DNA of 64,000 nucleotides from Klebsiella pneumoniae (GTDB lineage Bacteria > Pseudomonadota > Gammaproteobacteria > Steroidobacterales > Steroidobacteraceae), in contig CAMCBU010000006.1 in the NCBI GenBank assembly GCA_945873095.1, positions 1 through 64,000 of the forward strand, given 5' to 3'. Both the position numbers and the translations under genes were made by a program. Shown piece by piece: positions 19,922 to 62,064 of the stretch (its first letter is position 1; each line of letters begins with the position of its first letter). The notes below the pieces were generated by a model, which was not told the DNA's origin, ran no database searches, and saw only the letters and a program-made list of their open reading frames with translations.

Positions 19922-21247
19922 TCAGGGAATCTGCAGCTCGTGAGCCGCCAACCTCACCGGCTCCCAGACGCTGCGACCTTGCACGTCGCGCAGGTTCAGC
20001 ACCAAACCGCCGCTCGCATCAAACTCCAGCAGGCCGAAATTGCTGCCACCGTCGTAAGGCGGTCGCAGTCGCGCTTCGGCCTGCAGATCGTCGTTCGCGG
20101 ATCGGGTCGGCTGTGCGAGCGGCGAGCTCACGAGCTCGGTTAGATCGTAGCCCCCCTTGGCTCGTCGTGGCACGACATTGAGCTCACCGCGATGCACATC
20201 GCCCGACAGCAGCACCACGCCACTGATACGCTCGTCACGGATGAAATCGAAAATCTCATCGCGCTCGTGTCGATAAGCGCCCCAGCTCTCATCGAACTTC
20301 TCGCCACCGCGGGTCGCCCAGCCGCCTCCGGCGAGCAGCAATTTGTAGGTCGCATCGCTCTCGCGTAGCGCTTGTTTGAGCCAAGCTTTTTGCACCGCAC
20401 CGAGCTGTGTCTTTGCAGGCCCATCGGGTTGATCGCTCGGATCGCGATAACTGCGTCCATCGAGACAGAAGCACTCCACTTGAGCGATCCGCTTGCGGAA
20501 AAAAACGCCGGGCGCCTCAGGTAAACCATAGGCCGGGTTAGCCCAATACTTTTTGAAGCTGGCAAGGCCTAGCTCACGCACGGGCGAGTTTCGATCGCCG
20601 TTGTTGAGACCGTAGTCGTGATCGTCCCAGATCGCCCACTGCGGCACGCTGTGTAGCATCGCCTGGGCACTCGGTACGCTGCGCTGCAACTGGTATTCGT
20701 ATTCGAAAGCCATGGGGGCGAGACTGTCGATGTAGACGTGATCGCCAAGCCAAAAAAATCCATCCGGTTGTGCCGCTGCGATCGCCTCGAAGATCGGCTG
20801 ACGCCCATCGAGGATTCGACGCGCACACGAGCCGAACGCCAAGCGCAGCGGCGCATTGCCACGCGGCAGGGTGCGGAACACGCGCGGTGTGCGCGCATAA
20901 CGATCGGGCTTGCCGTCTAGCAAAACTCGATAGGCGTACGCGGTTGCGGGCGAGAGCCCCTGCAAGGGGATGCGGACGATGTAGTCCTGATCGGGCCGGG
21001 CCTCGATGGCGATGCTGCGAGCAGCGCCCTTCAACGTGGGATCGGTGGAATACTCGATCTCGATCCGATGCGCATCCGAGGCGCGCATCCATAGCACCGT
21101 GCTATCTGATGCGGTGTCACCGATCATCGGCCCTTGCAGGATGCGCGGATAGGTCTGCGCGCGCAGCAAATCCAACCAGCCGGCACCGGTTGCTGCCGCT
21201 AAAAGCGCAAGCGCACGGCGACGTGTCCAGTTTTTCACGAGCGACAT
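19922..21247 (-). CDS. PhoD-type alkaline phosphatase/phosphodiesterase, Tat-exported
   Basis: Calcium/iron-dependent periplasmic or secreted phosphatase. I start at ATG 21247, which overlaps the folA stop (TGATG) and yields the Tat-like signal TRRRALALLAAATGAG; the longer track start runs into folA. An N-terminal fibronectin-like domain (ILQGPMIGDTASDSTVLWMRA) precedes the metallophosphatase domain. Motifs there are LAFGSCARR, FFWLGDHVYIDS, IWDDHDYGLNNGD and VVLLSGDVHRGEL. Length 441 is somewhat short for PhoD but complete. Substrate range is unknown. Confidence 0.88.
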   Translation of the reverse strand: MSLVKNWTRRRALALLAAATGAGWLDLLRAQTYPRILQGPMIGDTASDSTVLWMRASDAHRIEIEYSTDPTLKGAARSIAIEARPDQDYIVRIPLQGLSPATAYAYRVLLDGKPDRYARTPRVFRTLPRGNAPLRLAFGSCARRILDGRQPIFEAIAAAQPDGFFWLGDHVYIDSLAPMAFEYEYQLQRSVPSAQAMLHSVPQWAIWDDHDYGLNNGDRNSPVRELGLASFKKYWANPAYGLPEAPGVFFRKRIAQVECFCLDGRSYRDPSDQPDGPAKTQLGAVQKAWLKQALRESDATYKLLLAGGGWATRGGEKFDESWGAYRHERDEIFDFIRDERISGVVLLSGDVHRGELNVVPRRAKGGYDLTELVSSPLAQPTRSANDDLQAEARLRPPYDGGSNFGLLEFDASGGLVLNLRDVQGRSVWEPVRLAAHELQIP

Positions 21248-21750
21248 CAGCTCACCCGCTCGAGATCTTCGAAAGTCATCGAGTACGCATGCTGCGAATC
21301 TGCCGGATAGCTCTCCGACGACACCACCTGCCACGCGTTGGGATCGAGCGGCGAGAAGTGGGTGTCGCCGTGCACGGTTGCGTGCACGCGCGTGCGCAAG
21401 ATCCGCCCGGCCAGCGGCAGCGCGAGCCGATAGATCTCAGCGCCACCGATGATCATCACCTCCGGTACCTCGCCTGCCGCTTGCAACGCCGCGTCGAGGG
21501 TGGGAACCACCGTCACGGCCGCATCTTGTACCGATGATGCGCCTTGCCGCGTCAGCACGATGTTATGTCGCTGCGGCAAAGGGCGCCCGATGGATTCGAA
21601 GGTCTTGCGGCCCATGATCACGGGTTTGCCCAGAGTCGCCGCTTTGAAACGCCGCAAATCCTCGGGCAAACGCCAGGGCAGCTGACCATCGACACCGATG
21701 ACACCGGCATCGGTCATCGCAACGATCAAAGTCACGCGTGGCCTTGCCAT
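21247..21750 (-). CDS. folA: Dihydrofolate reductase
   Basis: Reduces dihydrofolate to tetrahydrofolate with NADPH, regenerating the cofactor oxidised by thymidylate synthase. I start at ATG 21750 (MARPRVTLIV...). The 56-residue extension in the track is lysine-rich sequence antisense to nothing and in another frame of the SET gene tail. Motifs: GVIGVDGQLPWRLPEDLRRFK near residue 17, MGRKTFESIGRPLP and IIGGAEIY. Length 167 is normal. It lies 17 bases after the SET gene and close to thyA, the functional partner. Confidence 0.95.
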   Translation of the reverse strand: MARPRVTLIVAMTDAGVIGVDGQLPWRLPEDLRRFKAATLGKPVIMGRKTFESIGRPLPQRHNIVLTRQGASSVQDAAVTVVPTLDAALQAAGEVPEVMIIGGAEIYRLALPLAGRILRTRVHATVHGDTHFSPLDPNAWQVVSSESYPADSQHAYSMTFEDLERVS

Positions 21751-21767: not shown

Positions 21768-22352
21768 TCAAGGTCGTCTGACGACGCGTTTGGTTTTCTT
21801 TGCGGAAACCTTTTGCTTGGCGTTCTTTGTCTTGGTTTTTTTCTTTTGGGTTTTTTTCTTGTTGGCTTTTTTCTTTTGGGCCGGTCGCTTGGCAGGCCAC
21901 AGCATCGTCCCGCGGCACTTGGGCGAGCCACAGCGACAGGCATAGATCTCATCGACATTCGGCGGATCGTTCTTGTCGCGACCGATCTCGTAGTCGTAGC
22001 CGAGCTCCTCGCCCTTGGCGATATCGCGTACCGCATCGATGAACACGCGACGCTCGGCGATCGCCGACTCGCAGTTACCGTCGCAGGAATGGTTGATGTA
22101 CCGCGCTGCGTTGCCCTTGCGACCGCCATCGATCACCGTCTTTCGATCGACGATGAACAGGAAGGTGTGGTTATCGTTCGGGTCGTGATCGGCGTAGCGC
22201 TCGTCGGCTTCCCGGTGTGAGATGCGCTCCCCGATGTACTCGACGATGCGGGTACCCTTCGGGATCCGCTTGGCGGCGAAGATGCCCTTGCCGTGAATCT
22301 TGGAATTGCGGACCTGAATCCATGGACTGGTTCGCATCAGGGGTATCGCCAC
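21768..22352 (-). CDS. SET-domain lysine methyltransferase with lysine-rich C-terminal tail
   Basis: Predicted SAM-dependent protein lysine methyltransferase. SET motifs are complete: GKGIFAAKRIPKGTRIVEYIG near residues 21-41, NHSC at 87-90 and GYDY at 118-121. The post-SET CRCGSPKC at 139-146 supplies three Cys that, with the Cys of NHSC, form the zinc site known from eukaryotic H3-type SET enzymes. Residues ~158-194 are a very basic tail of K/T/A/N resembling histone H1 tails. GTG 22352 is the likely start: GGGAG lies seven bases upstream, while ATG 22337 has no ribosome site. Located between thyA and folA. Substrate unknown. Confidence 0.9.
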   Translation of the reverse strand: MAIPLMRTSPWIQVRNSKIHGKGIFAAKRIPKGTRIVEYIGERISHREADERYADHDPNDNHTFLFIVDRKTVIDGGRKGNAARYINHSCDGNCESAIAERRVFIDAVRDIAKGEELGYDYEIGRDKNDPPNVDEIYACRCGSPKCRGTMLWPAKRPAQKKKANKKKTQKKKTKTKNAKQKVSAKKTKRVVRRP

Positions 22353-22382
22353 GCAGTATCTCCCGGAACAATGAGTCGGATG

Positions 22383-23177
22383 TCAAACGGCCACCGGCGC
22401 CTTGATCGCCGGGTGAAATTGGTAGTTTCGAAACTCGAAATCGTCGAACACATAATCGAACAGCGTCGGCGGCCGGCGGCCGATGACGAGCTGCGGCAGC
22501 GACAGCGGCGCGCGCGATAATTGCAGGTCCGCTTGCTCGAGATGATTCGAATAAAGGTGGCAATCGCCGCCCGTCCAGACGAAGTCGCCAACCTGCAGAT
22601 CGACTTGCTGTGCCACCATGTGCGTCAGCAACGCATACGAGGCAATGTTGAACGGCACGCCGAGAAAGATGTCGGCACTGCGCTGATACAGCTGGCACGA
22701 CAAGCGTCCGTCGGCCACATAGAACTGAAAGAACGCATGGCACGGCATCAAGGCCATGTCCGCCAAGGCGCCGACGTTCCACGCGCTCACGATGATTCGG
22801 CGTGAATCGGGTTGCTCACGCAACTGCCGTAGCACCTCGCTGATCTGATCGATCGAGCCGCCGCTCGGCGTCGGCCATGAACGCCACTGCTTGCCATAGA
22901 CGGGTCCGAGTTCACCCTGCTCGTCGGCCCACTCATCCCAGATCGTCACGCCATGCTCGCGCAGATAACGCGTGTTGGTTTCCCCTTTAAGGAACCACAA
23001 CAGCTCATGCACGATGGACTTCAGATGGATCTTCTTGGTGGTAACCAGCGGAAAACCGCCACCGAGATCGAAGCGCATCTGATAACCGAACACGGAGAGC
23101 GTGCCGGTCCCGGTCCGATCGGTCTTGCGCGCGCCGTGCTCGCGCACGTGACGCATGAAATCCAGATATTGCTGCAT
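22383..23177 (-). CDS. thyA: Thymidylate synthase
   Basis: Makes dTMP from dUMP with methylene-tetrahydrofolate. From ATG 23177 the protein is 264 residues, exactly the E. coli length; the track's upstream extension lies in lgt. Catalytic cysteine is in [14 protein letters not shown] at position ~146. Substrate-binding motifs [29 protein letters not shown] and [20 protein letters not shown] are present, and it ends in KAPVAV. It sits four bases after lgt. Order lgt-thyA is common in gammaproteobacteria; folA follows after the SET gene. Confidence 0.98.
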
Positions 23178-23181
23178 GGGC

Positions 23182-23979
23182 TTACGCCGTGATCCTGTTA
23201 CCCGAAGGCAGATCACGCCGATACGCCAACAACAGCAGAACCACACCGGCGAGCAACATCGGCAAAGTGAGCACGTGACCCATGGTGAGCCAACCACCCG
23301 CGAGATACCCGATATGGGCATCCGGCAGACGCCAGAACTCGACGATCAAACGTCCCGACGCATACATGATCAGGAAGAGTCCGGAGGGTGCCCACTGCGG
23401 ACGCGGCTTCGAGGTGAACCACCACAGCACCGCCGCGAGCAACGCCCCTTCGAGCAGTGCCTCGTAAAGCTGGGTTGGATGGCGAGCCACGCCATCGACC
23501 AGCATGGCCCAAGGCACATCGCCCGGCCGACCCCAGAGCTCGCCGTTGATGAAGTTGCCAACGCGCACGGCAAGGATGCCGATACCCGGTAGCGCTGCCG
23601 CAAAATCGAAGACGTCGGCGACGCGCCGACCGCGCCGTTTTGCAAACAAGGCGAGCGCGACCAGCACGCCGATGAGTCCGCCGTGGAAAGACATGCCGCC
23701 TTCCCAGACCCGCAACAAATACAGCGGGTCTTGCAGCCAGAACTCCATGCCGTAGAAAAGGGTGTAACCGATTCGACCGCCCACGATGACGCCGAGCATC
23801 GCGAAGAACAAAAAGTCGTCGACATCGACGACCTTCCAAGTCGAGCCAGGCTGTGCAGCGCGACGCCGCGCCAGCCACCACGCCACGGCGAAAGCGACGA
23901 GGTAGGTCAGGCCGTACCATCGGACCTTGAGCGGGCCTAGCTCGAGTGCAACAGGATCAAAGCCGGGATAGACGAGCAT
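23182..23979 (-). CDS. lgt: Prolipoprotein diacylglyceryl transferase
   Basis: Inner-membrane enzyme that transfers diacylglycerol from phosphatidylglycerol to the lipobox cysteine of prolipoproteins. About seven membrane segments are visible. Motifs: [21 protein letters not shown] (HGGL) and the Lgt signature [19 protein letters not shown] near residue 140. Length 265 is slightly short but complete. It is four bases upstream of thyA. Several predicted lipoproteins in this window (LpoA, perhaps LptC) would be substrates. Confidence 0.96.
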
Positions 23980-36874: not shown

Positions 36875-36904
36875 GAGCGGCGGAGGCCTATCGACCTCCG
36901 CCGC
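36867..36904 (-). terminator. Intrinsic terminator of the glycine riboswitch
   Basis: On the minus strand GCGGCGGAGG and CCTCCGCCGC form a perfect 10-bp stem with an eight-base loop, followed by TCTTTTTTTT. It is directly 3' of the second glycine aptamer and 65 bases before gcvT, so it is the expression platform: glycine binding should favour read-through. Confidence 0.92.
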
Positions 36905-37095
36905 CCCTCTGTCCTTGAACCTGAGAGATCGGGTACTTGCCGTACCGCTCCCCTTCGGTGGGCTCCCGGTGGGGAGCCGCTCTCCAGAATTCGCCTGCGA
37001 CCTGCCGTTCTTTTGCCTGAGCGTTTCCGGGCGGAAACTTGCGCCTTCGGCGTCCGAAGCCGCCCTAACGGGGCGCTCGAATCTCTCCGGCGAGG
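36905..37095 (-). promoter_or_regulatory. Tandem glycine riboswitch
   Basis: Two consecutive glycine aptamers on the minus strand. Aptamer 1 (about 37012-37094) runs from CCGGAGAG through GCCGAAGGCGCAAG to CGCTCAGGCAAAAG. Aptamer 2 (about 36913-36988) runs from TCTGGAGAG through CACCGAAGGGG and ACGGCAAGT to CTCTCAGGTTCAAGGACAG. These are the conserved GGAGAG, CCGAAGG/GCAAG and CUCAGG elements of the class. The terminator downstream controls gcvT-H-PA-PB and whatever is co-transcribed. A TATGAT upstream near 37121-37126 may be its -10 box. Confidence 0.95.
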
Positions 37096-37187
37096 TCTGA
37101 TAACGCGAACGGGCGTAATCATAGCAGCCCGCACGATCGCGCGGCGTCTGACTTACACTGTCCATACGTCCTGACAGGAGCCCCCCG

Positions 37188-45654: not shown

Positions 45655-45856
45655 CGGCGGCGTCACCTGCCGTGTTCGATAGTGAATCGGGTTACCTCTC
45701 GACCCTAAGTTTGAACGCCCAGGGGCATCAAGGCTTGCTGTCAGCATTGTGCATGTCCGCCTCGAGCGGAAAGCCTTACCTGACGTAGTCCGCCCCACTT
45801 GTTGCTCTGTGTCGAGAGCAACGGTTCACACCGGCACTGGCGGGTGACGTCTGCGA
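45655..45856 (+). ncRNA. ssrS: 6S RNA
   Basis: Small RNA that mimics an open promoter and sequesters sigma-70 RNA polymerase in stationary phase. It occupies the 242-base gap between zapA and the 5-formyl-THF cyclo-ligase gene, its standard place. The ends pair: CGTCACCTGCC (45661-45671) with GGCGGGTGACG (45839-45849), an 11-bp closing stem with one G-U pair that can extend further. A roughly 200-base rod with interrupted internal pairing is expected. The exact ends are estimates; the primary sequence is diverged from E. coli, as is normal for 6S RNA. Confidence 0.85.
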
Positions 45857-47028: not shown

Positions 47029-47097
47029 ATGGCTAAGGCCAAAAAGAAAGCTAAGGCGAAAGCTAAGGCTAAGAAGAAGGTCGCCAAGAAGAAGTAA
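47029..47097 (+). CDS. 22-residue lysine/alanine-rich peptide
   Basis: Too short for the ORF track. ATG 47029 is preceded by GGAGA at good spacing and the frame ends at TAA 47095-47097. The product is 22 residues, 13 of them Lys and 7 Ala apart from Met and one Val, with repeated AKAK/AKKK blocks like a histone H1 tail. Own promoter, ribosome site and downstream terminator argue that it is expressed. It may be a real nucleic-acid-binding mini-protein, or a leader peptide for rpiA. Right after the stop, AGACTC-TTCGT-GAGTCT forms a hairpin. I do not recognise a named family. Confidence 0.6.
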   Translation: MAKAKKKAKAKAKAKKKVAKKK

Positions 47098-61518: not shown

Positions 61519-62064
61519 TTAACGGTTGGGTGTCTTGGCCGGCGACTTGCCGCGCGGTTTCACCGTGCGAGCACCATCTCGCTTCGGCGCGCCGCTATTT
61601 CGCTTGGGCGCTGCACCGGCGCGCGGCGATGAGCGCTTCGGCTTGGTTACCGATGCACGCTCGGCAACCTTGGCCGGAGCCGGTTCCCACAATTGCTCGA
61701 GCTGATAGAACTCGCGCGTGCGCGGCAACAAGACGTGCACCATCACGTCCGGCAGATCGACCAACACCCACTCGCCCTGCTCCTCGCCCTCGACACCGAG
61801 CGGTCGATGCCCGGCCGCTTTGACCATCTGCACGACTCGATCGGCAACGGCTCGCAAGTGTCTGTCTGAGGTGCCGCTCGCGATCACCATGTAATCGGTG
61901 ACATCGCTAGAGCCACGCACATCGAGCACTCGCACATCGACCGCTTTCATGTCGGCGAGCGCCGCTTCGACCACCGGCAACACACCCGTCACGCGCGGCC
62001 GGGCTTGCGCCTTGCCCCGTTTTTCGCGGGCGGGAGGACGAGAATTCGGGCGGGTTGTCTTCAT
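61519..62064 (-). CDS. rsfS: Ribosomal silencing factor RsfS with basic tails
   Basis: Binds uL14 and blocks subunit joining in nutrient limitation. The core (residues ~27-135) shows VVEAALADMKAVDVRVLDVRG, DYMVIASGTSDRHLRAVADRV and EGEEQGEWVLVDLPDVMVHVL. Unlike the ~105-residue E. coli protein it has a basic N-terminal 25 residues and a ~45-residue K/R/P/S-rich C-terminal tail (SSPRAGAAPKRNSGAPKR). 181 residues. Order nadD-rsfS-rlmH is conserved. Confidence 0.94.
   Translation of the reverse strand: MKTTRPNSRPPAREKRGKAQARPRVTGVLPVVEAALADMKAVDVRVLDVRGSSDVTDYMVIASGTSDRHLRAVADRVVQMVKAAGHRPLGVEGEEQGEWVLVDLPDVMVHVLLPRTREFYQLEQLWEPAPAKVAERASVTKPKRSSPRAGAAPKRNSGAPKRDGARTVKPRGKSPAKTPNR

Follow-up and report, generated by a model that had tools for sequence, protein, structure and literature searches.

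Named relatives, mostly environmental MAGs, place the window, a stretch of 64,000 nucleotides, in the Steroidobacteraceae (Gammaproteobacteria). Its minus strand carries a tight gene cluster in which a SET-domain gene lies between thyA and folA, and a very short ORF lies on the plus strand some distance away. The features are as follows.

19922..21247 (−), PhoD-like phosphatase (PF09423), its start overlapping the folA stop
21247..21750 (−), folA, dihydrofolate reductase, start MARPRVT, 17 nt downstream of the SET stop (PF00186, E 9e-57)
21768..22352 (−), CDS of the SET-domain protein, a predicted lysine methyltransferase of 194 aa (PF00856, E 6.3e-25; ORF; homologues)
21771..21884 (−), basic, acid-free, low-complexity tail, residues 157-194 (composition; tails of relatives)
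21915..21938 (−), CRCGSPKC of the post-SET, residues 139-146; its three Cys and C90 are the presumed zinc ligands (all four unchanged across 106 homologues)
21990..22001 (−), GYDY, residues 118-121 (sequence)
21990..22292 (−), SET domain core, residues 21-121 (Pfam match; residue conservation)
22083..22094 (−), NHSC, residues 87-90 (sequence)
22359..22364 (−), GGGAGA, likely ribosome-binding site of the SET gene (sequence)
22383..23177 (−), thyA, thymidylate synthase, start MQQYLDF, 30 nt upstream of the SET start (PF00303, E 1e-122; NF002499)
23182..23979 (−), lgt-like gene upstream of thyA, a conserved neighbour in the family (ORF; order in relatives)
47029..47097 (+), 22-aa ORF MAKAKKKAKAKAKAKKKVAKKK between an EVE-like gene and rpiA

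The SET ORF, first noted in a sequence-only reading of this DNA, was confirmed; it opens with GTG, and the Shine-Dalgarno-like GGGAGA stands 6-7 nt upstream of this start. The PF00856 domain is matched nearly in full (88.1 bits against a cut-off of 22.4), and the Pfam scan returned nothing else apart from an overlapping PRDM2_PR match below cut-off. The motifs NHSC, GYDY and CRCGSPKC are all present as that reading had described, the post-SET segment being of the CxCx4C type. Moreover, across 106 distinct homologues, GxG, NHxCxxN and ELxYDY (which contains the catalytic Tyr) show little or no variation. The catalytic Tyr121, Asn87, His88 and the presumed zinc ligands Cys90, Cys139, Cys141 and Cys146 are identical in all 106, with no loss of active-site residues, supporting the earlier proposal of a folded SET enzyme with its zinc and catalytic residues in place. 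At the F/Y-switch position, 104 of these 106 sequences have Tyr, as the window protein does (Tyr119).

The best PDB sequence matches are yeast Set1 and the human MLL proteins (E 4e-27 to 1e-21). An AlphaFold model built from 31 natural sequences of unaltered loci (alignment A2) has a mean pLDDT of 81, falling to about 55-61 in the tail. Foldseek matched this predicted model best to MLL SET domains (E 1e-13), indicating the SET pseudoknot fold at the level of prediction. With MLL1-4 and yeast Set1 (KMT2) the window protein shares NHxC, YDY, the CxCx4C post-SET and Tyr at the F/Y switch. It differs from them in being bacterial, free-standing and only 194 aa long, at ~35% identity, and in carrying a basic tail after the post-SET; Pfam found no PHD, WIN or other eukaryotic KMT2 domain in it. 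Tyr at the F/Y switch favours mono- or dimethylation, as established for SET7/9, G9a and MLL1, and mono- or dimethylation is therefore predicted here from Tyr119.

The last 38 residues comprise K16, A4, T4, Q3, V3, R3, P2, N2 and S1, with no Asp or Glu. The tail described earlier, of about 37 residues and mostly Lys, Thr, Ala and Asn, is indeed Lys-rich, with Asn a minor component. K+R makes up 0.525 of the last 40 residues, against a highest value of 0.375 among 59 window ORFs picked by a simple longest-ORF rule, which did not pick the SET ORF itself. Among 323 ORFs of related loci chosen by the same kind of rule, K+R of the last 40 residues reached at least 0.40 in only four, all of them SET proteins. 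In almost all members of the family the post-SET is followed by ~13-129 residues that form a basic tail poor in acidic residues; its sequence and length drift while its composition is kept. Because the genus relatives that were read carry such a tail, we regard it as real and not as a frame artefact. In some distant relatives (L092, L099 and L111) the tail is acidic or almost absent, which argues that it is an addition outside the catalytic unit.

The neighbouring PF00303 and PF00186 matches bear out the placement of the SET gene between thyA and folA. The order lgt-thyA-SET-folA-phoD-like runs on one strand with gaps of 4, 30 and 17 nt, followed by the overlap of folA with the phosphatase gene; the name lgt is taken from sequence and gene order, not from a family scan. 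This spacing suggests that lgt, thyA, SET and folA are likely to share one transcript. A synteny comparison, which the sequence-only reading had proposed for thyA-SET-folA, showed that the SET gene nearly always directly follows thyA in family loci, with lgt ahead of thyA; folA is either next to SET or roughly 1-2.5 kb away (~5 kb in one case). Cluster position by itself is no demonstration of a role in folate or thymidylate metabolism.

Within an order sample of 296 genomes, the SET gene was present in 84 of 89 Steroidobacteraceae as against 11 of the 207 others, these 11 with weaker scores. Strong matches outside the family (E < 1e-30) were confined to a few other families in the class sample, and remoter relatives were found in Myxococcota, Gemmatimonadota, Nitrospirota, Chloroflexota and others; the query of these distant-relative and class searches derived from alignment A1, in which one row (from L020) had its first three residues altered, affecting N-terminal columns only. 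Identity matrices gave r 0.62 for SET-ThyA and 0.75 for SET-Lgt, next to 0.71 for the ThyA-Lgt control, with 0 of 1000 permutations as high; part of the loci in the two collections come from identical genomes, and this overlap raises agreement between nearest neighbours equally for all pairs. A tree-distance comparison was weaker (r 0.25, 3 of 2000 permutations as high), and because distances over a 140-residue domain are noisy it was replaced by the identity matrices with their ThyA-Lgt control. Since SET distances agree with those of ThyA and Lgt as well as the latter two agree with one another, the gene behaves as a vertically inherited core gene. Ka/Ks of the SET domain is 0.04-0.11 between close relatives, and the gene is best read, from these comparisons, as vertically inherited and under purifying selection. 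The earlier view of a chromosomal core gene is upheld; a mobile or recently acquired gene was rejected on the basis of distribution, synteny and congruence.

We propose, at roughly even confidence, that the gene encodes an endogenous, vertically inherited and active zinc-bound lysine methyltransferase that works inside the cell on a basic, nucleic-acid-bound target, with a tail that tethers the enzyme to nucleic acid and may be automethylated. The SET domain would bind AdoMet, with the catalytic Tyr121 at the lysine channel, and C90 together with C139, C141 and C146 would hold a zinc ion, by which the post-SET is closed over the substrate. The expected product, given Tyr119 at the F/Y switch, is mono- or dimethyllysine. 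The enzyme is probably co-produced with Lgt, ThyA and FolA and would act in the cytoplasm. Its disordered, acid-free, Lys-rich tail may tether it to DNA, RNA or ribosomes and probably supplies lysines for automethylation. The enzyme's most likely target would be a further protein segment from the same cell that is likewise basic and bound to nucleic acid. Near-universal presence in the family, a fixed housekeeping locus and an intact active site imply a native substrate; likewise, such long retention in a fixed housekeeping cluster suggests methylation of the bacterium's own proteins instead of a weapon or a recent acquisition. Against this proposal, full activity of MLL SET domains depends on partner proteins, and basic low-complexity tails may be functionally loose.

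Known bacterial systems offer partial parallels. Bacterial SET proteins had been described as mostly known from pathogens, a view now outdated: a 2014 review (PMC3980110) puts the number of bacterial genomes with SET genes above 500, among them those of free-living species, and favours a bacterial origin of SET genes. SET enzymes of free-living bacteria are thus a kind already known. The same review lists substrates for a handful of bacterial SET enzymes, nearly all of them host histones; endogenous ones are the H1-like Hc1 for cpnSET and the archaeal chromatin protein MC1-alpha for Go1-SET. By description, the window protein resembles chlamydial NUE (CT737) and cpnSET, which are likewise small SET enzymes of bacteria with basic residues at the C-terminus, and also the prokaryotic Go1-SET of Methanosarcina mazei with its endogenous chromatin-protein substrate (PMC3980110), which is, in contrast, archaeal. 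NUE is reported to automethylate on lysines outside its SET domain (PMC2904774), and automethylation of the window protein's tail would be comparable. However, with NUE of C. trachomatis no methylation of Hc1 was observed (PMC2904774), a further point against our proposal. NUE is moreover a type III effector, whereas the window genome showed neither an injectisome nor a homologue of Hc1. Our literature search returned no paper linking a SET domain with thyA/folA or with Steroidobacteraceae.

A serious rival, to which we assign clearly less weight than to the endogenous enzyme with a basic, nucleic-acid-bound target, is a specific housekeeping methylase of one translational or metabolic protein (a ribosomal protein, an elongation factor, ThyA or FolA), the tail binding rRNA or being neutral. 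The thyA-adjacent position fixed in the family and the congruence with ThyA and Lgt fit it, and methylation is known for the ribosomal proteins and EF-Tu of bacteria. Yet gene order can persist without any link in function, folA often lies a further 1-2.5 kb off, and no ThyA, FolA or Lgt match was seen near SET in distant relatives outside the family.

A SET protein that has no catalytic activity and is retained as a binding scaffold would accord with the weakness of MLL-type SET domains without partners, but the catalytic and zinc residues are all invariant in the 106 homologues, drawn from several phyla, while the tail drifts; this conservation makes such a scaffold improbable. Least probable of all, by a hair, is a secreted effector acting on eukaryotic host chromatin in the manner of NUE or LegAS4: the catalytic domain resembles H3K4 methyltransferases, the basic tail could serve as a nuclear localisation signal and the NCBIfam AnkI/LegAS4 model, built on another bacterial SET group (Legionella AnkI/LegAS4/RomA), matches the SET part weakly (E 1e-16), but this match reaches 60.6 bits against a cut-off of 550, the window protein has no ankyrin part, and the gene is near-universal, sits in a housekeeping cluster and belongs to a family known largely from environmental genomes. 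The genome has no VirB4-type match, and in both of its type III export clusters the genes are arranged as in flagellar systems (FliN-FliO-FliP-FliQ-FliR-FlhB), which makes a secreted effector unlikely; no type III injectisome or VirB-type type IV system, and hence no machinery matching that of AnkI/LegAS4, was found in the genome, the FliQ matches falling in flagellar-type clusters.

For the preferred reading, an active endogenous enzyme with a basic target, speculative candidate substrates are its own tail, the Lys/Ala-rich N-terminus of RpoD and a microprotein of 15-22 aa. A strict KK-rich motif scan of the genome returned only the SET tail and the RpoD N-terminus (MSKKSKATASKKPARPAAAKASAKKAAPKKATPAK...), and this pattern missed the 47029-47097 microprotein; a KKKAKK DNA pattern found nothing in the window. 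RpoD was assigned from its sequence and its position next to dnaG. Hc1 was rejected as a substrate, the best PF07432 match in the genome being below cut-off (E 0.64). RsfS (ORF 61519-62064), whose basic tail was suggested earlier, has a moderately basic C-terminus (K+R 0.325), but nothing links RsfS to the enzyme.

The Lys-rich 22-mer, the other substrate suggested earlier, looks like a genuine family-wide microprotein. All 12 of the genus loci that were read, counting that of the window itself, have it at this position, and variants of 15-22 aa are conserved across Steroidobacteraceae. A strict pattern recovered its start in 58 of 150 family genomes and in 2 of 369 genomes of the class. The leader GGACTAACC...GGAG...ATGGC is present in 90 of 150 family genomes and is conserved as TATATACTC...GGACTAACCCG...GGAG, and a hairpin follows the stop codon in many relatives. 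NCBIfam has no model for the microprotein; its filters perform poorly on such short, biased sequences. From this conservation, 47029-47097 is likely a real, expressed microprotein, and it looks like an independently transcribed one. It is still present in G247 and G272, two near-complete genomes in which no SET gene was detected, and so the SET-microprotein pairing is not obligate; that the microprotein exists only as the enzyme's substrate is unlikely. Its persistence in these two genomes also counts against our proposal.

A bolder extension of the preferred reading, which we consider rather doubtful, is native chromatin lysine methylation in free-living bacteria, in which a core MLL-like SET enzyme would act on H1-like Lys/Ala-rich segments (its own tail, the RpoD N-terminal extension and the microprotein) and tune nucleoid or transcription-machinery binding. 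Should the target prove to be a protein of the nucleoid or of transcription, lysine methylation in the style of chromatin would reach into ordinary bacteria. A named strain among the relatives, Peristeroidobacter soli JW-3 (L093), makes the substrate question experimentally approachable.

Several further observations were made. The 2.49 Mb assembly has no SET gene besides the window copy, unlike some genus members (G003, G004, G006, G012, G019 and G021), which have a second, diverged SET gene with open frames of ~150-185 aa. The protein read as RpoD (L207 1-1605(−), G000 contig C46) has a long H1-like, Lys/Ala/Pro-rich N-terminal extension. ORF sequences place two separate flagellar-type export clusters (L208 and L209, G000 contigs C10 and C17) in this one 2.49 Mb genome. 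A Steroidobacteraceae-like contig (L047) is publicly labelled Klebsiella pneumoniae and is apparently a misnamed MAG. The window also holds an RNase P RNA cut off by its edge (1-129, −), tandem glycine riboswitch aptamers (36902-37100, −) and a 6S RNA (45661-45850, +).
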